Both the position numbers and the translations under genes were made by a program. Of a stretch of DNA of 34,008 bases, positions 4,501 to 33,985 are shown one piece after another (positions within the stretch are counted from its first letter, which is position 1; each line of letters starts with the position of its first letter). The DNA comes from a virus: positions 1 to 34,008 of IMG/VR virus record IMGVR_UViG_3300037882_000220. The stretch is one strand, 5' to 3'. The notes beneath the pieces were generated by a model that was given only the letters and a program-made list of their open reading frames with translations, did not search any database and had not been told where the DNA came from.

Positions 4501-4600
4501 TGTGTTCCCCCGAACAGTTACATTCAATCAAAGTTAGGCAATCAGTGCAGATGTGGTGCGGTCCATCATCATTTCCACAATTAACGCAGGAATCACTCAC
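4493..4600 (-). CDS. 35-aa four-cysteine zinc microprotein
   Basis: GTG start at 4600. The product has CVNC, then CTDC after 12 residues, then two further Cys (ECNCS), so it could hold one zinc. It begins inside the end of the methyltransferase (GTGAGTGA overlap) and ends inside the start of the primase (ATGAGTAA), exactly bridging the two genes. That placement, plus the Cys spacing, supports a real coding region despite its size. Function unknown; small zinc peptides recur in this genome. Confidence 0.6.
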   Translation of the reverse strand: MSDSCVNCGNDDGPHHICTDCLTLIECNCSGEHNE

Positions 4601-6357: not shown

Positions 6358-6429
6358 TGGCGTTGCAGGAATCGAACCTGCAGTTGCATCCCCCGATGCA
6401 ATCCCTCATCTGTGAACCATCACAACGCC
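6358..6429 (-). tRNA. Degenerate tRNA-like element
   Basis: On the minus strand a canonical T-arm (GCAGG-TTCGATT-CCTGC) is followed by CAACGCC, which pairs with a 5' GGCGTTG to close a 7-bp acceptor stem, and the next base is A. A hairpin TTGCAT-CGGGGG-ATGCAA occupies the anticodon-arm place. If counted as a 5-bp stem its loop has 8 bases, TCGGGGGA, without U33; GGG would suggest Pro. No normal D-arm can be drawn, the T-stem and acceptor compete for one base, and CCA is not encoded. It could be a decayed tRNA-Pro, a tRNA mimic, or a structured leader for the FmdB-like gene. A second hairpin (6434-6440 / 6456-6462) lies just upstream. Confidence 0.45.
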
Positions 6430-7796: not shown

Positions 7797-8111
7797 TTAG
7801 TCCTCGTTCACAATAGAGAATCTTCGAGAAGTAGATACTATCTCAAGAGCATCTATAACCTGCGCAGGCAGGATTTCACGGGCGCGTTTGGTATCAAAGC
7901 GCCTTGACTCAACAAATGTGTAGCGAACAACTGGGCGGTTTAAGAACATACCCAATTGATTATCGCCCATTGCTCGCTCGATGTGTGCGCGAGCAACATC
8001 TGCAACTTCTTGCAGTTCTTTGATCTTGGCTTGGGCAGATTTATACTGCTCCAGCCAAGCGGCAGTGTTGGCATCAAAGTCCACCACGCCTGTTTCTATT
8101 TCTACACTCAT
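7797..8111 (-). CDS. Exonuclease-associated helical protein
   Basis: 104 aa from MSVEIETGVVDF. The middle is a helix (NTAAWLEQYKSAQAKIKELQEVADVARAH as two segments), followed by a compact C-terminal part (NRPVVRYTFVE ... RRFDTKRAREILP ... TSRRFSIVNED). Similar segments accompany YqaJ/RecB-like viral exonucleases, so it is likely a partner of the nuclease immediately downstream. The open frame extends to 8165, but ATG 8111 directly follows a TGGGGG hairpin (8111-8128) that supplies the Shine-Dalgarno. An ATG at 8123 is less likely. Confidence 0.7.
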   Translation of the reverse strand: MSVEIETGVVDFDANTAAWLEQYKSAQAKIKELQEVADVARAHIERAMGDNQLGMFLNRPVVRYTFVESRRFDTKRAREILPAQVIDALEIVSTSRRFSIVNED

Positions 8112-8122
8112 ACTAACCCCCA

Positions 8123-8506
8123 TTAGTAATAGTTCTTTTGTTTGAAATGTTCCCACGCTCCGCAAGGACCGCTGGAACCGTACTTTCTGCCTATGTAGGC
8201 AAGTGCTGCGATGGTTTGAGCAACAGTTGATTTACTGCGCTTCATTCCAAGATTTCGATAAGTGCCATCCAATAACTGCCCAACCCCGGATGCGGTGCTG
8301 GTCGGATTTTTCTTATCTTGCCAGGCGCTTTCCTTGCTCATAAGAGCGTTAAAGCACTTGAACTGATGTGCGGTAAGTAGCTCGCGAGCCACTTCCTTTG
8401 GATTAACCTGCATTAAATGCGGGCGATCTTTGTAAATCACCAATTGTGGTACTGCAGGCGGTGCCATTATTGCTTGAACTGTTAATGAAGTTCCCACGCT
8501 AACCAC
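8123..8506 (-). CDS. Lytic transglycosylase-like (SLT) protein
   Basis: 127 aa from GTG 8506. The region ALMSKESAWQDKKNP with its Glu, followed by SGVGQLLDGTYRNLG and a later TIAALAYIGRKYGS, matches the SLT/goose-lysozyme pattern (ES...N, GxxQ, AxxYI). It would cleave peptidoglycan glycan strands. The frame is open upstream of the GTG and reads RLIRRLAVIIVVSVGTSL, a convincing signal peptide, but no ATG, GTG or TTG codon lies there; only ATT, ATC or CTT is available. So either a rare start is used or the protein lacks its signal. It overlaps nothing downstream and lies far from the lysis genes. Confidence 0.75.
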   Translation of the reverse strand: MVSVGTSLTVQAIMAPPAVPQLVIYKDRPHLMQVNPKEVARELLTAHQFKCFNALMSKESAWQDKKNPTSTASGVGQLLDGTYRNLGMKRSKSTVAQTIAALAYIGRKYGSSGPCGAWEHFKQKNYY

Positions 8507-9831: not shown

Positions 9832-10380
9832 TTAGACTCGCTGAACTTCAATTTGAAAAGGTGGGGCGGTGTTAATGTCATATTTGGCAGCAATTGTCAG
9901 CGCTTCAAGTATTTGTTCTTGCGCCCAATCAGGTTTGGCAAGGTTCGGCAGTTGCCCCGCCAATGCGCCTAGCGCGTAGGCAGAGCCTGAGCCAACCCCA
10001 TAGAGTCCATCAGCGCTTTGAGTCACACTGAGATCATCGCCAATTTCAAATATATTGCCAGCAAATGCCAGTAAATATGAATAACTGATTCCTTCTTTGG
10101 TGTAATCAAAGCCCTGCAACTTAAATGCCGCAATGATGCTTGGCACAATCTTTTTGCCCACAAAGGCAACTGGATTAGTGCCATCGTAGGCTGGCGGTGT
10201 CCAGTTATAGGTGAGAATATCCCCTGGCCTGCAATCACCGCTAACTGCCAACAGGTACTTTTTCAGCTTCACAATCTTCGGCGTGCTGGGTGAGATGATG
10301 CGCTTATCCCCATCAGTCACCTGAGAGTCTGCCCCCAAAATGGCAAAATCAGGCCCCTGATAGGCGATTACGGTGGTCAT
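9832..10380 (-). CDS. Proteasome/HslV-like Ntn hydrolase
   Basis: 182 aa starting MTTVIAYQGPDF. Removing Met would expose Thr1, the Ntn nucleophile. Counting from it, Asp17 sits in LGADSQVT and a Lys (34) in STPKIVKL, matching Thr1/Asp17/Lys33 of proteasome beta subunits and HslV. AVSGDCRPGD and YGVGSGSAYALGAL resemble the later family motifs. There is no propeptide. The frame extends to 10506, but that part is non-coding-like. TACACT (10387-10392) ends six bases before this ATG, suggesting a leaderless transcript. It could be a self-assembling protease or a peptidase; no ATPase partner is encoded. Confidence 0.82.
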   Translation of the reverse strand: MTTVIAYQGPDFAILGADSQVTDGDKRIISPSTPKIVKLKKYLLAVSGDCRPGDILTYNWTPPAYDGTNPVAFVGKKIVPSIIAAFKLQGFDYTKEGISYSYLLAFAGNIFEIGDDLSVTQSADGLYGVGSGSAYALGALAGQLPNLAKPDWAQEQILEALTIAAKYDINTAPPFQIEVQRV

Positions 10381-10386
10381 TGCCCA

Positions 10387-10392
10387 AGTGTA
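10387..10392 (-). promoter_or_regulatory. -10 element of a putative leaderless promoter
   Basis: TACACT on the minus strand fits the actinobacterial TANNNT. Only TGGGCA separates it from ATG 10380, placing the expected start of transcription at or next to the A of the start codon. No good -35 is seen at normal spacing. No Shine-Dalgarno precedes the gene, which supports leaderless translation. Confidence 0.5.
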
Positions 10393-10508
10393 GGGGTAAG
10401 GCGTGAAAACCCTAGCAATTCCCCAATTCTTCGGGTTCCCACGCCTCAATCTGACCCTAACACGCCCAAAGTGCGTTATCAAATCGTTATGTGTCTTGGG
10501 GGTCAATC

Positions 10509-11833: not shown

Positions 11834-12097
11834 TTAACTTGTGGCGATCTCGCCAGCAATTGCAAAATATGCAGCGCCATCTACAAAACTATCAAGATGA
11901 TCAGGTGATTCAATCAACCTAGCAACTTTGACAAGTGCAAGGCACATCGCAGCTTGAGATGGAGAAATTTCTTGTTCTAAATAGATTGACCATAAACCAG
12001 CAATGCGCTGATGATTTGTTAATGGCTTTCCATAATTTTTATTGCGATCACCGTGAGTGAGATGCTTGGCTTCATCTAGTATTTCGCCTCTATCCAT
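11834..12097 (-). CDS. DUF6378-like protein
   Basis: 87 aa: MDRGEILDEAKHLTHGDRNKNYGKP, then helices and SFVDGAAYFAIAGEIATS. The HGDRxxNYG element and the D.. .DxxxxAxxxxA.AGE ending are typical of a widespread phage family annotated as DUF6378, of unknown function. ATG 12097 follows GGGGGATGTAA (12104-12108 on the plus strand) within the end of the glycosyltransferase gene, so the two are coupled. It is the last gene of the leftward late operon before the terminator. Confidence 0.7.
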   Translation of the reverse strand: MDRGEILDEAKHLTHGDRNKNYGKPLTNHQRIAGLWSIYLEQEISPSQAAMCLALVKVARLIESPDHLDSFVDGAAYFAIAGEIATS

Positions 12098-13166
12098 TTA
12101 CATCCCCCATCTGATACCAGCCATCGCCCCAAAGGGTTAATAATCGCTGAAAGTAAGCCTCGTATTGAAGGGCGATAGTATCAAGGTTATAGAGCGATAC
12201 GGCACGATTTCGGATTTTGGCCCGATCTAGGTATTTGACCCCTTCGGCTGCCTGCATAAATTCAGCCAAAGTACGGCACCTGAAGCCTGAAATTCCATCA
12301 GGATTGTTCTCTGTAAATGCACCCCAATCAGTTGTGATTGTTGGCGTGCCACAAGCCTGTGATTCGATTACTACATTGCCAAAAGGTTCTACATAAAGTG
12401 TTGGTGCAAAGGTGGCAATGGCACCGCCCATTAAAGCTGCGCGTTCTTCAGGTCCAACTGAACCGACAAACTCGCCATATCCTGATTGCTCGCCAGGACC
12501 AGCCAAAATCAATCGTTTGCCTAAACGCTGGCAAACCTCTTGTGCAATGCGATAACCCTTGCGATCAATCAACCGACCAATGAAAAGGTAATACTCGCCC
12601 TGCTCGTCTCCGTTGCCATCTCCCAATGGGAACATTTCAGGTTCTAAATACCCTGGAATGACCGCATCGTAGAACTGGCCATCGGCAGTTGTCGGGTTTT
12701 TCCACCCTGCATAAATTGAGTGCATCCAGGCATACGATTCAAAGACTCGAAACTTGGCAAACACACCGCCGTAGCCAACGCCGAACTCCACGGCAATATG
12801 GGCAGGAAAGGCATCGGCAATTGGCTTTTGTGCGCTGCCACCGATAAGGCAAATGAAATCTTCTTTTTCAATGCGATCTGCAATTTCAGTAATTGCCTTA
12901 GCATTGAAGGAATCCCAAAGCCACCCGTTAAACGGGAACTGGGTGTAGTGAGCTACACCGTGAAGCGCTGCCTCTTGTTGCTTCTTTGACACGCAAGTAA
13001 TCAATTCGGTAACAGGTGCCTCAACCTCATCGCCAGCATACAAAAAGACTTCGTGGCCTAAATCGTGCATCATTATACAAAAGCGGCGCACCTTTTCAGT
13101 AAAGGCGCATCCTGCGAACTCTTTTGTTACCTGTGTGTGTGGCAATGCCACAATATGAAAACGCAT
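12090..13166 (-). CDS. Glycosyltransferase, GT4-type (GT-B fold)
   Basis: 358 aa. The C-terminal half has GRLIDRKGYRIAQEVC, LAGPGEQSGYGEFVGSVG and the sugar-nucleotide motif EPFGNVVIESQACGTPTITT, with a conserved ExxG pattern. The N-terminal half begins MRFHIVALPHTQVTKEFAG, as in GT-B enzymes that grip an acceptor. It probably glycosylates phage tail proteins or modifies a host surface polymer. ATG 13166 follows GGGGG in the palindrome GATTCGGGGGAATC (13168-13181). The same 14 bases precede the other glycosyltransferase gene. It lies just downstream of the surface-protein genes, which may be its substrates. Confidence 0.85.
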   Translation of the reverse strand: MRFHIVALPHTQVTKEFAGCAFTEKVRRFCIMMHDLGHEVFLYAGDEVEAPVTELITCVSKKQQEAALHGVAHYTQFPFNGWLWDSFNAKAITEIADRIEKEDFICLIGGSAQKPIADAFPAHIAVEFGVGYGGVFAKFRVFESYAWMHSIYAGWKNPTTADGQFYDAVIPGYLEPEMFPLGDGNGDEQGEYYLFIGRLIDRKGYRIAQEVCQRLGKRLILAGPGEQSGYGEFVGSVGPEERAALMGGAIATFAPTLYVEPFGNVVIESQACGTPTITTDWGAFTENNPDGISGFRCRTLAEFMQAAEGVKYLDRAKIRNRAVSLYNLDTIALQYEAYFQRLLTLWGDGWYQMGDVNG

Positions 13167-13185
13167 TGATTCCCCCGAATCTTAA

Positions 13186-13739: not shown

Positions 13740-15500
13740 TTAGACTGCGTATCGAATTATAACTACGCCTGAACCGCCAGCGGCTTGTCCAAGTCTTACA
13801 TTGTCATTAGCAACGGCAGTACCACCACCGCCACCACCAGTGTTTGCGGTTCCATTTGTTGCTGCACCTAGATTTGTTCCTCCCGCACCGCCACCGCCAG
13901 TTCCACCTGCACCGCCAGTTGCAAAACCGCTGTTTCCAGCACCACCACCACCGCCTGCGCGAGTAACTGAAGTTCCAGTAATTGAAGAAGCAACACCGTT
14001 ACCGCCAGCACCGCCAACGGTAGATGATGCAGCACTACCTACTGCGCCAGCACCACCACCACCTCCACCAACTCTAGGGTTGTTTGAGTTAAAACCAGCA
14101 CCACCTGCATAACCTTCACCTGTTGTACCAGCACCGCCATTTGCGCCTGCGCCACCGCTACCTCCTGCACCTGAACCACCTGATGCGCCTGTTGAAAATG
14201 CTATGGTTTTACCACCACCGAGACTGGTGATTGTAGTTAAACCTGTACCGCTGATTGATGAATTACCACCATTACTAGTAGGGTCAAAACCGTTTCTATC
14301 ACCCTTTGGACCGCCAGCACCAACTGTTATTGTGTAATTAGTTCCAGAACTCATTGAAATTCTGGATTCGGCACTTGCTCCGCCTCCTGAAGATTCACCA
14401 ACCACTGAGCAACGATATCCACCAGCACCACCGCCACCGCTTGCTTCGGCACCTGTTCCGCCACCGCCAGCAATTACAAGGTATTCAACATTTGTTAATG
14501 CTTGATTAGGTGTGAATGTACCCGAACCAGTAAATGTGTGAATCCAGTAACCACCACTTGTAGTTACAGTTCCACCTGTTGCTTTTGCAACGAAAGAAGG
14601 GGTTGTGTTAAAAGTTCCCGAAGAAGTAAAAGTGTGAACATAATATCCACCTGAACTTACTATTGTATTTCCACCAGATGCTAATTGTGTTGGAGATTGA
14701 TAACGAGCTATAACAATTCCTGAACCACCGTTACTACCTTCGCTTGGACCTGTTCCACTTCCACCAGCACCACCGCCTCCACCACCTGTGTTAGCAGTTC
14801 CTGCAACAGAACTTACTGATGCACTTCCACCAGCACCGCCGCCGCCTGTACCACCTGCTGATGTTAATGAAAACGCGCTGCCTCCACCTCCACCGCCTGC
14901 ATAGGCAGTAGATGTTCCTGAAATTGAAGTGCTTACACCCGCACCACCATTACCACCAACACCGCCACCAGAGGTTAAACCTGCAGCACCAACTGCATTA
15001 GCACCACCGCCACCGCCTCCACCACCTACGCTTCCATTCCAAACATTTAGTCCGCCAGCATAACCTTGATTGGTTGTTCCAGTTCCAACAACTGTTCCAT
15101 TGTTTCCAGTACCGCCACCAGAACCACCATTTAGACCGTTGTAATCAGTGCCACTTGCTCCAGCAGCATTACCTCCACCGCCACCGCCTGCAGTTGCGGT
15201 GATTGTTGAAAATACAGAATTAGAACCGCTAACTCCTTGTCTTGATGGTGAGCCAGCAGCACCTGCACCACCAGCGCCAATAGTTACTGTGTAAGCAGTA
15301 TTTGAAGCAAGATTTAATGGTGTTTCTAAAGAACCACCACCGCCTGTTGCAGTAACGGTTGAACGAAGTCCACCTGCACCACCACCACCAGTAAGATAAG
15401 CCCAACCTCCACCACCGCCACCAGCAACTACAAGGTAATCAACAACTGTTAAACCAGTTGCAGTCTTAATACTTGATGCAACAACTCCTAGAATTGGCAT
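13740..15500 (-). CDS. Glycine-rich tail or surface protein with tandem domains
   Basis: 586 aa with very high Gly and Ala. Two repeated units each open with a hydrophobic strand before a glycine tract: VVDYLVVAGGGGGG near residue 22 and NVEYLVIAGGGGTG near residue 335. Both then carry TVGAGG-type segments (YTVTIGAGG, YTITVGAGG) and many GGSGGAGG runs. This matches the glycine-rich phage domain of tail-fiber tips. It probably forms the distal receptor-binding or adhesive surface. It follows two collagen-like genes and starts on TAATG. The opposite strand shows poly-Pro/Ala frames that are shadows. Confidence 0.8.
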   Translation of the reverse strand: MPILGVVASSIKTATGLTVVDYLVVAGGGGGGWAYLTGGGGAGGLRSTVTATGGGGSLETPLNLASNTAYTVTIGAGGAGAAGSPSRQGVSGSNSVFSTITATAGGGGGGNAAGASGTDYNGLNGGSGGGTGNNGTVVGTGTTNQGYAGGLNVWNGSVGGGGGGGGANAVGAAGLTSGGGVGGNGGAGVSTSISGTSTAYAGGGGGGSAFSLTSAGGTGGGGAGGSASVSSVAGTANTGGGGGGAGGSGTGPSEGSNGGSGIVIARYQSPTQLASGGNTIVSSGGYYVHTFTSSGTFNTTPSFVAKATGGTVTTSGGYWIHTFTGSGTFTPNQALTNVEYLVIAGGGGTGAEASGGGGAGGYRCSVVGESSGGGASAESRISMSSGTNYTITVGAGGPKGDRNGFDPTSNGGNSSISGTGLTTITSLGGGKTIAFSTGASGGSGAGGSGGAGANGGAGTTGEGYAGGAGFNSNNPRVGGGGGGAGAVGSAASSTVGGAGGNGVASSITGTSVTRAGGGGGAGNSGFATGGAGGTGGGGAGGTNLGAATNGTANTGGGGGGTAVANDNVRLGQAAGGSGVVIIRYAV

Positions 15501-16162
15501 TAGGCAATGTCACCTGTCGCATACCATGAGTCAGTTCCAGCCTTGATGAGAGTAATGACTGAATACTGCGCTCTTGATTTAGGTGTTGTTGATGTAGCTC
15601 CAGTTGAAGCGACTGTTACACCGCCAGCGCCGACAACAGTTACTTGACCTGCACCAATCTGAATAAGGTTGACAAGGCTGCCAGTTGGGAAGGCAACAGA
15701 TGAGTTCAAAGGAATTGTGTAAGTTTGCGCTGAAGCATTTGATGCAGTCACTAGATCATCTTTGTCAGATAAAACAAAAGTATAAGTTGTGCCAGTTTGA
15801 GCGTTAACCGCTTCAACACCACCAGCACCAGTAGCACCAGTTGCGCCAGTAACACCAGTAGGTCCAGTTGCACCAATCGGTCCTGTAGGTCCAGTAACAC
15901 CAACAGGTCCAGTCGCACCAACAACACCAGTTGCACCTACTACACCAGTGGGTCCTGTTGCTCCAATTGGTCCAGTAGGACCCGTTGCACCAGCAGCACC
16001 TGCAGTGTAGGCATAAGCCAATGAGTTCCAGGCAGTTGCGCCATCACCCATTTTGTATTTTGCGGTGTCTGTTTCAAGTCCGATTTCGCCAGCGGCAAGT
16101 GTTGGATTGTTTGCAGTCCAGTTTGCTGCGGTGTCGCGGCGGTTTTGTAGTCTTGATGTCAT
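15500..16162 (-). CDS. Collagen-like tail protein with fiber N-terminal domain
   Basis: 220 aa. The N-terminus [20 protein letters not shown], then [28 protein letters not shown], is the repeat-like motif of phage fibers and Mtd-type baseplate attachment domains. A collagen-like Gly-X-Y stretch ([16 protein letters not shown] and so on) spans roughly 58-115. The C-terminal domain ([19 protein letters not shown] to SWYATGDIA) resembles small trimeric fiber heads. It probably forms a trimer attached to the baseplate. Confidence 0.85.
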
Positions 16163-16181
16163 TTTTGCCTTTTCTTAATTG

Positions 16182-18125
16182 TTAGAAAGAAACTGATGCG
16201 CCACCCGCATCAATAGTATAGGTCCAAGTTGAAGTTGATGAAGTTCCTGAATTGTAAATAATGTCGGGATTGATTGATGAAGAACCACCATCAAGATAAT
16301 CAACAATATAAACTGCTGCATCTTGGCCAGTGGGTCCTGTTGCACCAGTTGGTCCTGTTGCGCCATTGATTCCTGAAGGTCCTGTTGCACCTGTCGCACC
16401 AACTGCACCAGCGGTGCCAGTAGCACCAGTAGGGCCAGTAGAACCTGCAGGTCCACTTGCACCTGTTGGTCCAATGAGATTTACACCTGCAGGCCATACA
16501 CCTGCAGCTTTAGGACCAAAGATTTGATTTGTAACAGTGTTGATGTAGAAATCACCATCAACACCTTGCGTTGTTGGGTTAACTGTTCCATTGAGAACTG
16601 AATAACCTGCAACACCTGATGCACCAGTTGGTCCTGTTGCACCTGCAGGTCCTGTTAAACCTGTTGGTCCAGTTGCACCTACGGCACCTGCAGTACCTGT
16701 TGCACCGACTGGTCCAGTAACGCCAACAGGGCCAGTAACACCAACATCACCCTGGATGCCTTGAATTCCTTGTGGTCCTGTTGCACCTGTAGCACCTGCA
16801 GGTCCAGTCGCACCTACAACGCCTTGAATACCTTGAGGACCAGTAGCACCAGTTGCGCCCGCAGTTCCTGCAGGTCCTGTTGCACCAGTTGCACCTATAT
16901 CACCTGCAATACCTTGTGGGCCAGTAGGTCCAGTTGCACCAATTACGCCAGTTGCACCTGTTGGTCCAGGAACTGTTGAATCAGCACCTGATGCACCAGT
17001 TGCGCCAATTGCGCCAGTTGGACCTACTGCGCCAGTTGCACCTATAGGTCCTGTTGCACCCGTTGCACCTGCAGGTCCAGTTGGACCCACAACGCCTGTT
17101 GAAACAATTGCCACAATAAGTTGGTGATTGTTTGCAAAGTTTGTTGTGCCTGTTCCACCTGATGTTGTGAGCGTTACAGGAACTTCAACATAACCTGTCT
17201 GCATTGTAGGTGTTGCAGATACTGTGAACTTTTGAAAGTTATCAGAAAGGTTTTTATCTTGAACAACAATAACATCGCCTGTTTTGATTAAAGCTAAAAA
17301 AATGTCAACATCTACACCATCTGAGTTGATGTGACTTATGTTGATCTGTGTTGCAGAAATCTGTGTTGCATTGTTCCAAATCAAATCACCATTGCCAGGG
17401 TTTCCCGTTGTGATTGTTGTGTCTGCTCTGTAATCGTAATAGTTTGCACTGCCACCATCGGCACCAGTTGCACCTGTAGCACCAGTAGCACCTGTTGGAC
17501 CAGCAACGCCAGTGGCACCGATAGGGCCAGTAACACCAGTTGCACCAGCAGGTCCTGTAACACCTGTTGGTCCTGGCACAAATGAATCAGCACCTGTTGG
17601 ACCTGTTGCGCCAACTGGTCCTGTTGCGCCAACTACACCTTGAATACCTTGTGAACCTGTTGCACCAACGGGTCCTGTAGCGCCAATTGGACCTGTAACA
17701 CCAATTGGGCCAGTAACACCAATGGCACCTGTTGCACCTACGGCACCAGTTGCACCAACTGGACCAGTAGCACCAATTGGACCAGTTACACCAATTTCAC
17801 CCTGAATACCTTGAATACCTTGTGGACCTGTAGCACCAACTGGGCCTGTTGAACCAATTGGACCTGTAACACCAATTGGACCTGTAGCACCAGTAACACC
17901 AACGGGTCCAGTAGCACCCGTAGCACCGCTAACACCTATTGGACCAGTTGCACCAGTAACACCAATTGCACCTGTAGCACCAGTTGCACCTGCTGGACCT
18001 GTCGGACCAGTTGGACCCTGAACACCTTGCGGACCTTGAAGGTTTGAAATAATGACTTCGGCAGGTGAGGCAATTTCTGCAATTACATCAGTTGTGCTTG
18101 ATGATACATAGACGATTGAACTCAT
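16182..18125 (-). CDS. Long collagen-like tail fiber protein
   Basis: 647 aa. After a short N-terminal attachment part ([20 protein letters not shown]), a Gly-X-Y collagen tract runs to about residue 235, rich in [14 protein letters not shown] non-collagen beta domain follows (about 238-355, containing [20 protein letters not shown]). Two further collagen tracts surround a small domain with [19 protein letters not shown] near 520. The C-terminus ends [11 protein letters not shown]. It likely makes a long flexible trimeric fiber. The gene overlaps its upstream neighbour by ATGA. DNA of the tracts is highly repetitive and may recombine. Confidence 0.88.
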
Positions 18126-26889: not shown

Positions 26890-27001
26890 GCTTTATTCTC
26901 GTTTCTACTTTGGGAAGCATTGCCTTTTCCAGTTGTGGAATCGCCGTAGCAGTTTCCTTTGATTTTACCTTAATTCTTAAAATTCTTTTTATGCGTTCCA
27001 T
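26876..27001 (-). CDS. 41-aa basic peptide
   Basis: MERIKRILRIKVKSKETATA, continuing to KVETRIKRGDH. Strongly basic. It fills the gap between the glycosyltransferase (13-base overlap) and the head-tail adaptor (14-base overlap), but its ribosome site is weak. It may be real and coupled, or the gap may be non-coding. Confidence 0.45.
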   Translation of the reverse strand: MERIKRILRIKVKSKETATAIPQLEKAMLPKVETRIKRGDH

Positions 27002-27666
27002 ATATCGTGCTGCCTATCATCTAGCCAATAACTCTTTGAGTGAGGAAGTATCGCGCCAGTGTGGGCATAAATTGGAAAACCTAGTGAGCGAACTCGGCGG
27101 CAAAACTGTAAATCTTCGCCTATCCATTCGCCGTTGATTGGGCCATCCCAAAACCAGCACCAATCTTGCCCCTGGTGTGGGTCGGCATCTGCTCTGATTG
27201 CTTCAAGAACGCTTCGGTGGATTAGCAAACATCCAGTACCTGCTGCATCTACTTGGAAAATTGAATCTTTATCGTACTTATTTAACGGCAAGAAGCCTTC
27301 AGGGGCATCTTGAAAAATCGTTGGCACTGGTTGTGGGTACGGATAACCTGTTTCAAAACTTGCAAACACCAAACCTGCTACAACTGGGCGCTCTTTGTCA
27401 TGCGCGGCTTCAATCAATTTATCAAATGCTTCAACAGAAAGTTGCTCATCTGAATCCATCATTAGTAACCAATCAGATTTGGTTTCTAAAAATTGTTTTA
27501 CTAAACGATTGCGTTGCTTTGAAAGCAACCCTGAACCCTTGATTCTAATAAATGGGCCAAGTCGTGCTGATCGTGATTGAGCAACCTGAACCAAGCTAAA
27601 TGCAAACCCACCATTAACTGTTCCTGGGTCACAACTACCAATTGAAACTTTATGTGCCGACTTCAT
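26989..27666 (-). CDS. GT-A type glycosyltransferase in the head gene block
   Basis: 225 aa. The DxD-like motif MMDSDE is seen near residue 70, followed by EAFDKLIEAA, GLVFASFE, VDAAGTGCLLIHRSVL and GEDLQFCRRVRSLG, all typical of GT2-like enzymes. The N-terminus starts MKSAHKVSIGSCDPG and carries no signal. It may glycosylate capsid or tail proteins, since it lies between the capsid and connector genes. ATG follows GGGGG in GATTCGGGGGAATC (27668-27681). Confidence 0.83.
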   Translation of the reverse strand: MKSAHKVSIGSCDPGTVNGGFAFSLVQVAQSRSARLGPFIRIKGSGLLSKQRNRLVKQFLETKSDWLLMMDSDEQLSVEAFDKLIEAAHDKERPVVAGLVFASFETGYPYPQPVPTIFQDAPEGFLPLNKYDKDSIFQVDAAGTGCLLIHRSVLEAIRADADPHQGQDWCWFWDGPINGEWIGEDLQFCRRVRSLGFPIYAHTGAILPHSKSYWLDDRQHDIWNA

Positions 27667-27690
27667 AGATTCCCCCGAATCATTTAAGAA

Positions 27691-27732
27691 GTAAGAGGCG
27701 GGTTAGTCGGGGGAGAAAAACCCGCCTCTTAC
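27691..27732. terminator. Strong hairpin after the capsid gene
   Basis: A perfect 14-bp inverted repeat (27691-27704 / 27719-27732) with a 14-base loop containing CTCCCCC on the minus strand. On the minus strand it is followed by TTCTTAAATG; on the plus strand by AATTTTTAAC. A partial terminator after the capsid gene would lower expression of the genes that follow, as seen in other phages. Confidence 0.8.
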
Positions 27733-27748
27733 AATTTTTAACTTTCGA

Positions 27749-29095
27749 TTAGAAAGTTGGTGCTACCAAACCAGTGCCTGAAATGATTGAGGCTGCTAGT
27801 GGGTAACGCTCTGCAGAGAAGGCACCAAATCCATAAACAACAGACTTGATTGTGAGAGATGAAGCACCAGTTGCATCAAATGACAATGCGAATGGTGATC
27901 CTGGCTGCTCCCAAAGGTGCATTTCAGGTGCTGCTACGCAGTAAATCTGATCTTGGTTTGTTGCTGCACCAAGATTAGTTACAACATTTGCATCAGCAAT
28001 GATTGGCAAGCCCATCATTGAGTAACCTGAATTGCCGTATCCAACTACGCCTGCACCTGCTGCAGTTGCGTTCATTGGACCATTTGCAGTTGGAACTACT
28101 AATGGGCGGCCTGTTGTGTCCACTGCTGCTAGCAAGAAAGCTAGACGGCGTGGGTGCATAATCCAGTGTGTTGGTGTTTCAAACACATTTGACTGAATCT
28201 GTTGAATTGCATCAGCCAACTTTGGATATAGCAAAGCAACTGTTGGTGTTGTTGCAGTGAAAGTGATTGCATTTCCACCTGAATTTGCGATTCCCTTGAA
28301 CTGGCCATTTGAGCCTGTTCCATTTAGAACCTGATTATCAACTGTTGTGTGCCATGAACGGATTAGGTCAGCAACAACAAATGTGTCAATGCCTGTTCCG
28401 CGCTCAATTGCCTGGCGTGATAGGTCCTGTTGTCCAGCAATTGTACGAACTGGGATGCTCAAAAGTGTATCGTCAGCATCAGTTTCTGATACTGCAGTGT
28501 TCTGAGTTTCCTGAACTGCAGTTGATGTACCTGTTGTCATACGGGAAATCTCAAGAGACATTCCAGCAGCAGGTAGTGTGTGCTTTGCAGTTGCAAAGTC
28601 TGCAGTTGGGCGGCCTGCGCGTGCATAAGGTGCAGCGAGGTCAACCAAGTATTGTGGAACAACTAATCCAGCGAAGTTTGATGTACCAACATCACGGCGC
28701 TCAATTGATTCTTCCTTTGTGTGGCGAGCAAGGCGCTCTTGTGCTGAGTAATCTCCGCGAATCTGAGCGTTAAAAACATCCTTAACGAATGAAACTTCAG
28801 CTTCAGGGTTGTATGTGCGAACTTCGCGTGTAACTGTTGAGCCACCAACGCGAGGTGTGATTACTGCTGCAACAGATGAGCGCATTTCTGCAACCTTTGC
28901 ATCTGCTGCTGCCTGTGTTGTGAACTTTTCAATCTTTGCATCTAGTGCGCGTGCTTCTTCTACAAGAGCATCAACCTTATCGGTTTCCTCTGCAGTAAGG
29001 TCGGTGCGAGATTCTGCGGCTACTGCCTCAAGAACTGCATCCATTTCTGCCTTAACTGCATCACGGCGCTCTACTACATTGTCAAAATATGACAT
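27749..29095 (-). CDS. Major capsid protein (HK97 fold)
   Basis: 448 aa. The N-terminal ~100 residues are a helical scaffold-like delta domain (MSYFDNVVERRDAVKAEMDA ... EIEKFTTQAA), followed by a conserved region near 105-135 where the prohead protease would cut. The rest holds HK97-type segments: GLVVPQYLVDLAAPYARAGR, ISRMTTGTSTAVQETQ, DLSRQAIERG, NQVLNGTGSNGQFKGIAN, HPRRLAFLLAAVDTTGRPLV. ATG follows TTAGGAGATCACTAA, a canonical ribosome site. Confidence 0.92.
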   Translation of the reverse strand: MSYFDNVVERRDAVKAEMDAVLEAVAAESRTDLTAEETDKVDALVEEARALDAKIEKFTTQAAADAKVAEMRSSVAAVITPRVGGSTVTREVRTYNPEAEVSFVKDVFNAQIRGDYSAQERLARHTKEESIERRDVGTSNFAGLVVPQYLVDLAAPYARAGRPTADFATAKHTLPAAGMSLEISRMTTGTSTAVQETQNTAVSETDADDTLLSIPVRTIAGQQDLSRQAIERGTGIDTFVVADLIRSWHTTVDNQVLNGTGSNGQFKGIANSGGNAITFTATTPTVALLYPKLADAIQQIQSNVFETPTHWIMHPRRLAFLLAAVDTTGRPLVVPTANGPMNATAAGAGVVGYGNSGYSMMGLPIIADANVVTNLGAATNQDQIYCVAAPEMHLWEQPGSPFALSFDATGASSLTIKSVVYGFGAFSAERYPLAASIISGTGLVAPTF

Positions 29096-33871: not shown

Positions 33872-33887
33872 CTAACGCCCCCGTTAG
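33872..33887. repeat. G4-loop inverted repeat upstream of terminase
   Basis: CTAACG (33872-33877) and CGTTAG (33882-33887) flank CCCC, GGGG on the minus strand. It has the same form as the Shine-Dalgarno hairpins before the primase and both glycosyltransferases, but here the distance to the assigned start is about 23-38 bases. Confidence 0.7.
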
Positions 33888-33930
33888 TTTCGATTACCTT
33901 GCTTTTTCAAAATTCGGACATTTGGTACAA

Positions 33931-33974
33931 ATCAGTTCAAACCAGTTCAAACCAGTTCAAACCAGTTCAAACCC
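33931..33974. repeat. 10-bp tandem direct repeats at the right end
   Basis: ATCAGTTCAA then three exact ACCAGTTCAA units plus a partial ACCC. The 10-base period matches one helical turn, so all copies face the same side of the DNA. It lies upstream of the terminase genes near the genome end and may be a terminase or cos-binding array. Confidence 0.85.
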
Positions 33975-33985
33975 GCCACCCCCCA

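Follow-up and report, generated by a model that had tools for sequence, protein, structure and literature searches.

Two unrelated glycosyltransferase genes of an uncultured phage begin with the same 14-base leader, which we judge probably to be an RNA hairpin that brings both mRNAs under shared translational control. The sequence analyzed (the window) is a virus record of 34,008 bases, and the two genes lie on its minus strand. One encodes a GT4-type (GT-B) glycosyltransferase of 358 aa (GT4; 12090–13166; PF00534, E 6.9e-12; phrog_3408, E 5.2e-77). The other encodes a GT-A type enzyme of 225 aa, here called GT2 (26989–27666; PF00535, E 9.1e-06; phrog_34859, E 1.4e-31), and its upstream neighbor is the major capsid gene (27749–29095, minus strand; PF05065, E 7.9e-16; phrog_2263). 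Because the hairpin is kept by paired changes of its arms, the phage probably controls both enzymes together at translation.

The 14-mer, GATTCCCCCGAATC, lies exactly where an earlier note on this DNA had placed it, at 13168–13181 and 27668–27681, and at no third window position with zero to two mismatches. Read in the sense of the genes, the leader is GATTCGGGGGAATC, followed by one base (A in GT4, T in GT2) and the ATG at 13166 or 27666. The resulting element, H2, has the layout GATTC-GGGG-GAATC-N-ATG, in which the loop is formed by GGGG of a GGGGG Shine–Dalgarno run, and the fifth G, the following A, and three further bases pair with the five upstream bases. About one base separates the 3′ arm from the AUG, a position from which the stem could affect ribosome binding. 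In isolation the 5-bp stem has little stability (−3.6 kcal/mol at 37 °C), and minimum-energy modeling predicts another fold for the longer GT4 leader of the window. Although 212 14-mers recur on the window sense strand (2.3 in shuffles), many of them presumably from repetitive tail genes, 14 is the longest string common to any pair of leaders (903 pairs among 43 gene leaders; the next values are 11 and 10), and we reject chance repetition as its origin.

Some of our alignments include loci picked by the 14-mer itself, and we therefore used leaders from loci fetched by protein similarity alone as a bias-free control. For GT4, 75 of the 79 distinct leaders in this control carry the G-run; all five pairs are present in 48/75 and at least four in 58/75. 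All 61 distinct GT2 leaders have the G-run, with five pairs in 51 and at least four in 56. Watson–Crick counts exceed those expected from independent columns at pair 3 (63 versus 29.5 in GT4, 58 versus 34.8 in GT2), pair 4 (65 versus 28.0 and 56 versus 39.6), and pair 5 (50 versus 25.2 and 54 versus 34.2). The pairing ends at pair 6, where 11 pairs are seen versus 12.2 expected in GT4 and 17 versus 23.6 in GT2. Paired arm changes among the leaders include ACATC/GATGT, AGTTC/GAACT, GAATC/GATTC, and TAATC/GATTA. Pairs 1 and 2 (C-G and U-A) hardly vary, so that UCGGGGGA is an almost constant core flanked by outer arms that are free to vary. As in structured cis-regulatory mRNA leaders, the stem is maintained in homologs by compensatory change. 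Since the arms change together and the pairing stops at pair 6, we take H2 to be a real structured leader, and it is best read as an RNA element for translation control.

The larger alignments, in which some loci were chosen by the 14-mer, point the same way. Across 73 aligned GT4 leaders, standard pairs make up 90.3% of cells at the five stem positions versus 69.1% after shuffling, the covariation score is 0.532 versus 0.201 (0/500 shuffles as high), and sliding the partner column destroys the signal; across 49 distinct GT2 leaders, the corresponding fractions are 99.6% and 91.8%. On gene trees, which also include pattern-chosen loci, the 5′ arm has changed at least 14 times in GT4, where 57 of 73 rows keep the hairpin intact, and at least seven times in GT2, where 93 of 95 do. 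Full pairing is absent from 27 of the 75 control GT4 leaders with a G-run, and one GT4 clade (CCAGGGGGAATA) has kept the gene and the G-run and lost the hairpin.

To see which genes follow the leader, as the earlier note had proposed, we searched IMG/VR viral contigs with the leader plus ATG (GATTCGGGGGAATCNATG) and obtained at least 120 sites in at least 119 stretches. Among the 120 sites listed, 118 precede homologs of the two enzymes by blastp of the downstream ORFs; in the remaining two, the contig stops 5 and 2 codons into the ORF. Contigs from cellular genomes contained the pattern in 44 stretches, compared with about 30 that we estimate by chance for 17 fixed bases in 257 billion, and none of the 44 downstream genes matches either enzyme, so we reject a cellular origin or host use of the leader. 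Eight of these 44 matches represent one Paraburkholderia gene (L316, L323, L330, L333, L341, L344, L346, and L347), where the 14-mer lies one base 5′ of the ATG of a conserved 105-aa gene that we take to resemble flhD. Two alternative arm versions were searched as well: GAATC precedes the two enzymes at 31 of 38 sites (29 GT2, 2 GT4, 7 others), and ACATC precedes GT4 at 12 of 14 sites (2 others). Among 999 distinct start sites with a G-run, the glycosyltransferase rows of which were partly pattern-chosen, five standard pairs (G-U allowed) occur at 113/127 GT2, 59/85 GT4, and 31/787 other sites. Eighteen of these 31 belong to the family of a 104-aa gene, and 13 are scattered, three of which were brought in by the pattern itself. 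The exclusivity of the G-loop hairpin to the two enzymes is strong, not absolute.

GGGGG lies a few bases 5′ of the ATG in about a dozen window genes, and the claim of the earlier note that these lack the arms is nearly right: G-loop hairpins occur at four other places in the window, each with different arms. The view that the hairpin is found at no other gene, suggested by a comparison of Watson–Crick arms only, therefore falls, and use of the device is not confined to glycosyltransferases. The four, all on the minus strand, are TGTTC-GGGG-GAACA in the prim-pol leader (4503–4516), unique to this window in a comparison of 11 prim-pol leaders; TTGCATC-GGGG-GATGCAA (6384–6401), an arm with the core UCGGGGGA; ACTAAT-GGGG-GTTAGT (8112–8127) at the start of the 104-aa gene (7797–8111), whose family also shows the arms CTAAT/GTTAG and TTGAT/GTCAA; and CTAACG-GGGG-CGTTAG (33872–33887), which precedes the start of the terminase small subunit gene by about 22 nt and has arms that vary among relatives. 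Close to the last, near the contig end, lies a short tandem repeat of cagttcaaac-like units (33925–33975). The arm at 6384–6401 is part of a tRNA-like element (about 6358–6429, minus strand) whose acceptor and T arms look normal and whose anticodon arm is closed by the GGGG loop. In relatives, this arm reads GCATC/GATGC, GTATC/GATAC, or ACATC/GATGT around the same core, and L211 has a different arm. ARAGORN reports odd tRNAs ('tRNA-???') in L021, L078, and L232 that are possibly this element. Distinct contexts of TCGGGGGA continue into at least three further pairs in 133 of 221 cases, and their loci are enriched for the two enzymes; for 15 other octamers of the form XY-GGGG-Y′X′, the proportion ranges from 0 to 33%, with CGGGGGCG at the top (14/43). 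The hairpin, strongly linked to the two enzymes, may thus be a particular case of a more general G-loop signal.

The region between the capsid gene and GT2 contains further structure. A small hairpin, H0 (27740–27758, minus strand), holds the capsid stop codon in its loop and has arms of at least 5 bp in 36/50 relatives. Between H0 and H2 lies a long hairpin, H1 (27691–27732, minus strand), with arms GTAAGAGGCGGGTT and AACCCGCCTCTTAC, a C-rich loop, and covariation in relatives. In 50 relatives, which together have 37 different stem sequences, its pairing continues for 16 pairs and is at chance at pair 17. When the register is held fixed, at least 13 of the 16 pairs form in 41 relatives and nine or fewer in the other nine, in part, it seems, on account of bulges or a shifted loop. 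The end of the loop (27707–27713, minus strand) is conserved as CCCCCGA (44/50; CCCCCGG in 4/50 and CCCCCAA in 2/50) and is complementary to UCGGGGG of the G-loop hairpins. This C-loop is whole upstream of 77 of 78 GT2 leaders, and for the remaining one it is truncated by the contig end. In 509 loci we counted 98 distinct C-loop hairpins of at least 9 bp, of which 95 are followed by a GT2 leader, one is truncated, and two lie elsewhere. H1 does not resemble an ordinary intrinsic terminator, given that its tail (UUCUUAAAU) has no U-tract and that 27691–27732 was not flagged as one. Readthrough of the stop codon from capsid into GT2 was set aside by inspection, since relatives differ by one or two bases in spacer length.

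The C-loop piece and H2 form a duplex of eight pairs (−17.0 kcal/mol, versus −9.7 kcal/mol for a comparison duplex with what we take to be the anti-Shine–Dalgarno tail), and this makes CCCCCGA a plausible kissing or sequestering partner of the core UCGGGGGA. Extended covariation between C-loop and G-loop was looked for and not found. The core is nearly invariant, and where it has changed (L433, AACGGGGGTT), the C-loop did not follow, which leaves the kissing idea without covariation support. CCCCC is absent from the GT4 upstream stretches listed, so any action of the C-loop on GT4 would be in trans. The sole contig with both genes and a CCCCCAA loop (3300008110_000602) has a GT4 leader that lost both UC and the hairpin, a single case that proves nothing.

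The genomic contexts of the two genes differ. The 330 bases upstream of 79 GT4 loci sort into 18 clusters unrelated to one another, and identical arms turn up in more than one cluster; the GT4 leader and gene hence move together. GT2, on the other hand, lies behind the major capsid gene in 73/73 loci, in a single upstream context. The suggestion of the earlier note that leader and gene travel as a unit thus holds for GT4 and fails for GT2. Nor are the two leaders copies of one traveling piece, since arms can differ within one contig (ACATC on GT4 and GATTC on GT2 in L104). In L256 and L514, GT4 lacks its own leader and is preceded by another GT-A-like gene, which has a weak Anp1 match below the Pfam cut-off and matches to phrog_1574 and phrog_34859; here the G-loop hairpin is found at the GTG start of that gene.

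Several other explanations of the leader can be weighed against shared control at translation. That these are ordinary Shine–Dalgarno sites in a phage that favors GGGGG, with arms that are functionless products of chance or inheritance, would suit the dozen or so window genes with GGGGG near the ATG. This view is already contradicted by arms that covary in both genes and stop at five pairs, and other genes with conserved G-runs are armless (0/84, 0/75, and 0/37 with strict Watson–Crick pairing of at least 4 bp), so we give it almost no credence. We hold in equally low regard the idea of a single-stranded DNA hairpin acting in recombination or mobility at the border of a movable GT4 cassette. 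The 18 upstream clusters and the repeated switching of leader alleles could be read in this way, yet GT2 is fixed behind the capsid gene and carries the same hairpin, and the hairpin keeps its place at the start codon. A DNA dyad, such as a transcription-factor operator or a promoter element overlapping the start region, is a better candidate that we still regard as improbable: an inverted repeat in DNA accounts equally for paired arm changes, and the phage encodes a WhiB-like factor. However, the distance to the AUG is near-fixed, the Shine–Dalgarno run serves as the loop, and the arm sequence is free around a fixed, one-handed GGGG center. Moreover, single departures from pairing, GATTT/GAATC (L190 and L203) and GATTC/GAGTC (L294), keep G-U pairs, which favors RNA over duplex DNA.

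The hairpin might also merely expose the Shine–Dalgarno sequence in an apical loop, insulated from outside pairing and with no trans-acting partner. GGGG is about 99% unpaired in a folding model of the isolated GT2 leader, the arm sequence is free, and such insulation would pay for a gene such as GT4 that sits behind 18 unrelated upstream sequences. Against this stand the closing pairs UC/GA, which are nearly fixed while the outer pairs vary, the same core in the tRNA-like arm, which is not a start site, and the absence of the device from most other genes. We consider this explanation possible, though unlikely. Shared translational control, also put forward in the earlier note, gains indirect support from the covariation of the hairpin on both genes, with a regulator that is itself putative. 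Under shared control, the hairpin would be a common handle for adjusting initiation on the two mRNAs to the production of capsid or tail, read by pairing with the C-loop of H1 (in cis on GT2, perhaps in trans on GT4) or, alternatively, by a putative protein. A full RNA network, in which the C-loop would repress UCGGGGGA-type G-loop hairpins by kissing (acting in cis for GT2 and in trans for GT4) and the tRNA-like G-loop might compete, is a more specific proposal that we consider unlikely.

Known regulatory systems offer partial parallels. Sites for CsrA/RsmA present GGA in a short hairpin that overlaps the ribosome site. H2 is likewise a short GGA-containing hairpin over a Shine–Dalgarno sequence, but its arms are free, and the A of GGGGGA lies in pair 2 of the supported stem and not unpaired in the loop; no CsrA was seen among the part of the window proteins scanned with Pfam. 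Rfam 15 gives no matches in the window. The best subthreshold score at the GT2 site, a weak resemblance of the capsid–GT2 intergenic region to the traJ 5′ UTR (RF00243; 18.7 bits versus a gathering score of 50, E 1.1), is at chance level. In Staphylococcus aureus, C-rich hairpin loops of RNAIII and the Rsa RNAs pair with the Shine–Dalgarno sequences of target mRNAs (PMC2837412, PMC3861533). H1 similarly presents a C-rich hairpin loop complementary to the G-rich Shine–Dalgarno sequence of its target, and loop–loop pairing is possible. RNAIII is the closest precedent for pairing of this kind; unlike it and the Rsa RNAs, the phage C-loop sits between two genes and is not known to belong to a separate small RNA, the pairing is a candidate one, and we claim no sequence relation. 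A search of open-licence PMC papers found no description of the element.

The likely host of the window phage is actinobacterial, as suggested by the WhiB-like protein encoded in the window and by the capsid protein, whose best matches among phage records are mycobacteriophages (≈37% identity). The phages sharing the hairpin are a large, widespread group of uncultured freshwater phages, probably actinophages. Other features of the window include an apparent assembly leftover at the contig start (1–22), presumably Illumina adapter sequence; a protein matching the proteasome subunit family (9832–10506, minus strand; PF00227, E 1.2e-06); two genes with long collagen-like Gly-X-Y repeats (15500–18125, minus strand) adjoining a glycine-rich protein (13740–15500); and 120 GANTC sites. 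Mycobacteriophage Porcelain, with a capsid protein 37% identical to that of the window, has two annotated glycosyltransferases a little downstream of the capsid gene, although there an O-methyltransferase lies between, and the G-loop hairpin was not seen at the glycosyltransferase starts. For phage Maravista, capsid glycosylation has been suggested (PMC11256854). GT4 and GT2 probably serve virion or surface glycosylation; by analogy with Porcelain and Maravista, a virion role is a fair guess. For the enzymes of E7 and F5, two cultivated phages of Ca. Planktophila, PMC10202952 proposes a role in protecting DNA or altering the cell wall. The enzyme of E7 and F5 is 31% identical and is preceded by a plain AGGGGACA leader, and the G-loop hairpin was not found at the displayed enzyme starts of the cyanophage, E7/F5, and Manatee Spring homologs.

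Strongly supported by covariation and without an Rfam match, the structured RNA element H2 links two unrelated enzymes under one probable translational device. The arrangement provides a directly testable model for how a phage may coordinate glycosylation with capsid production. If the proposed RNA network is true, the level of the capsid message would set the level of both glycosyltransferases.
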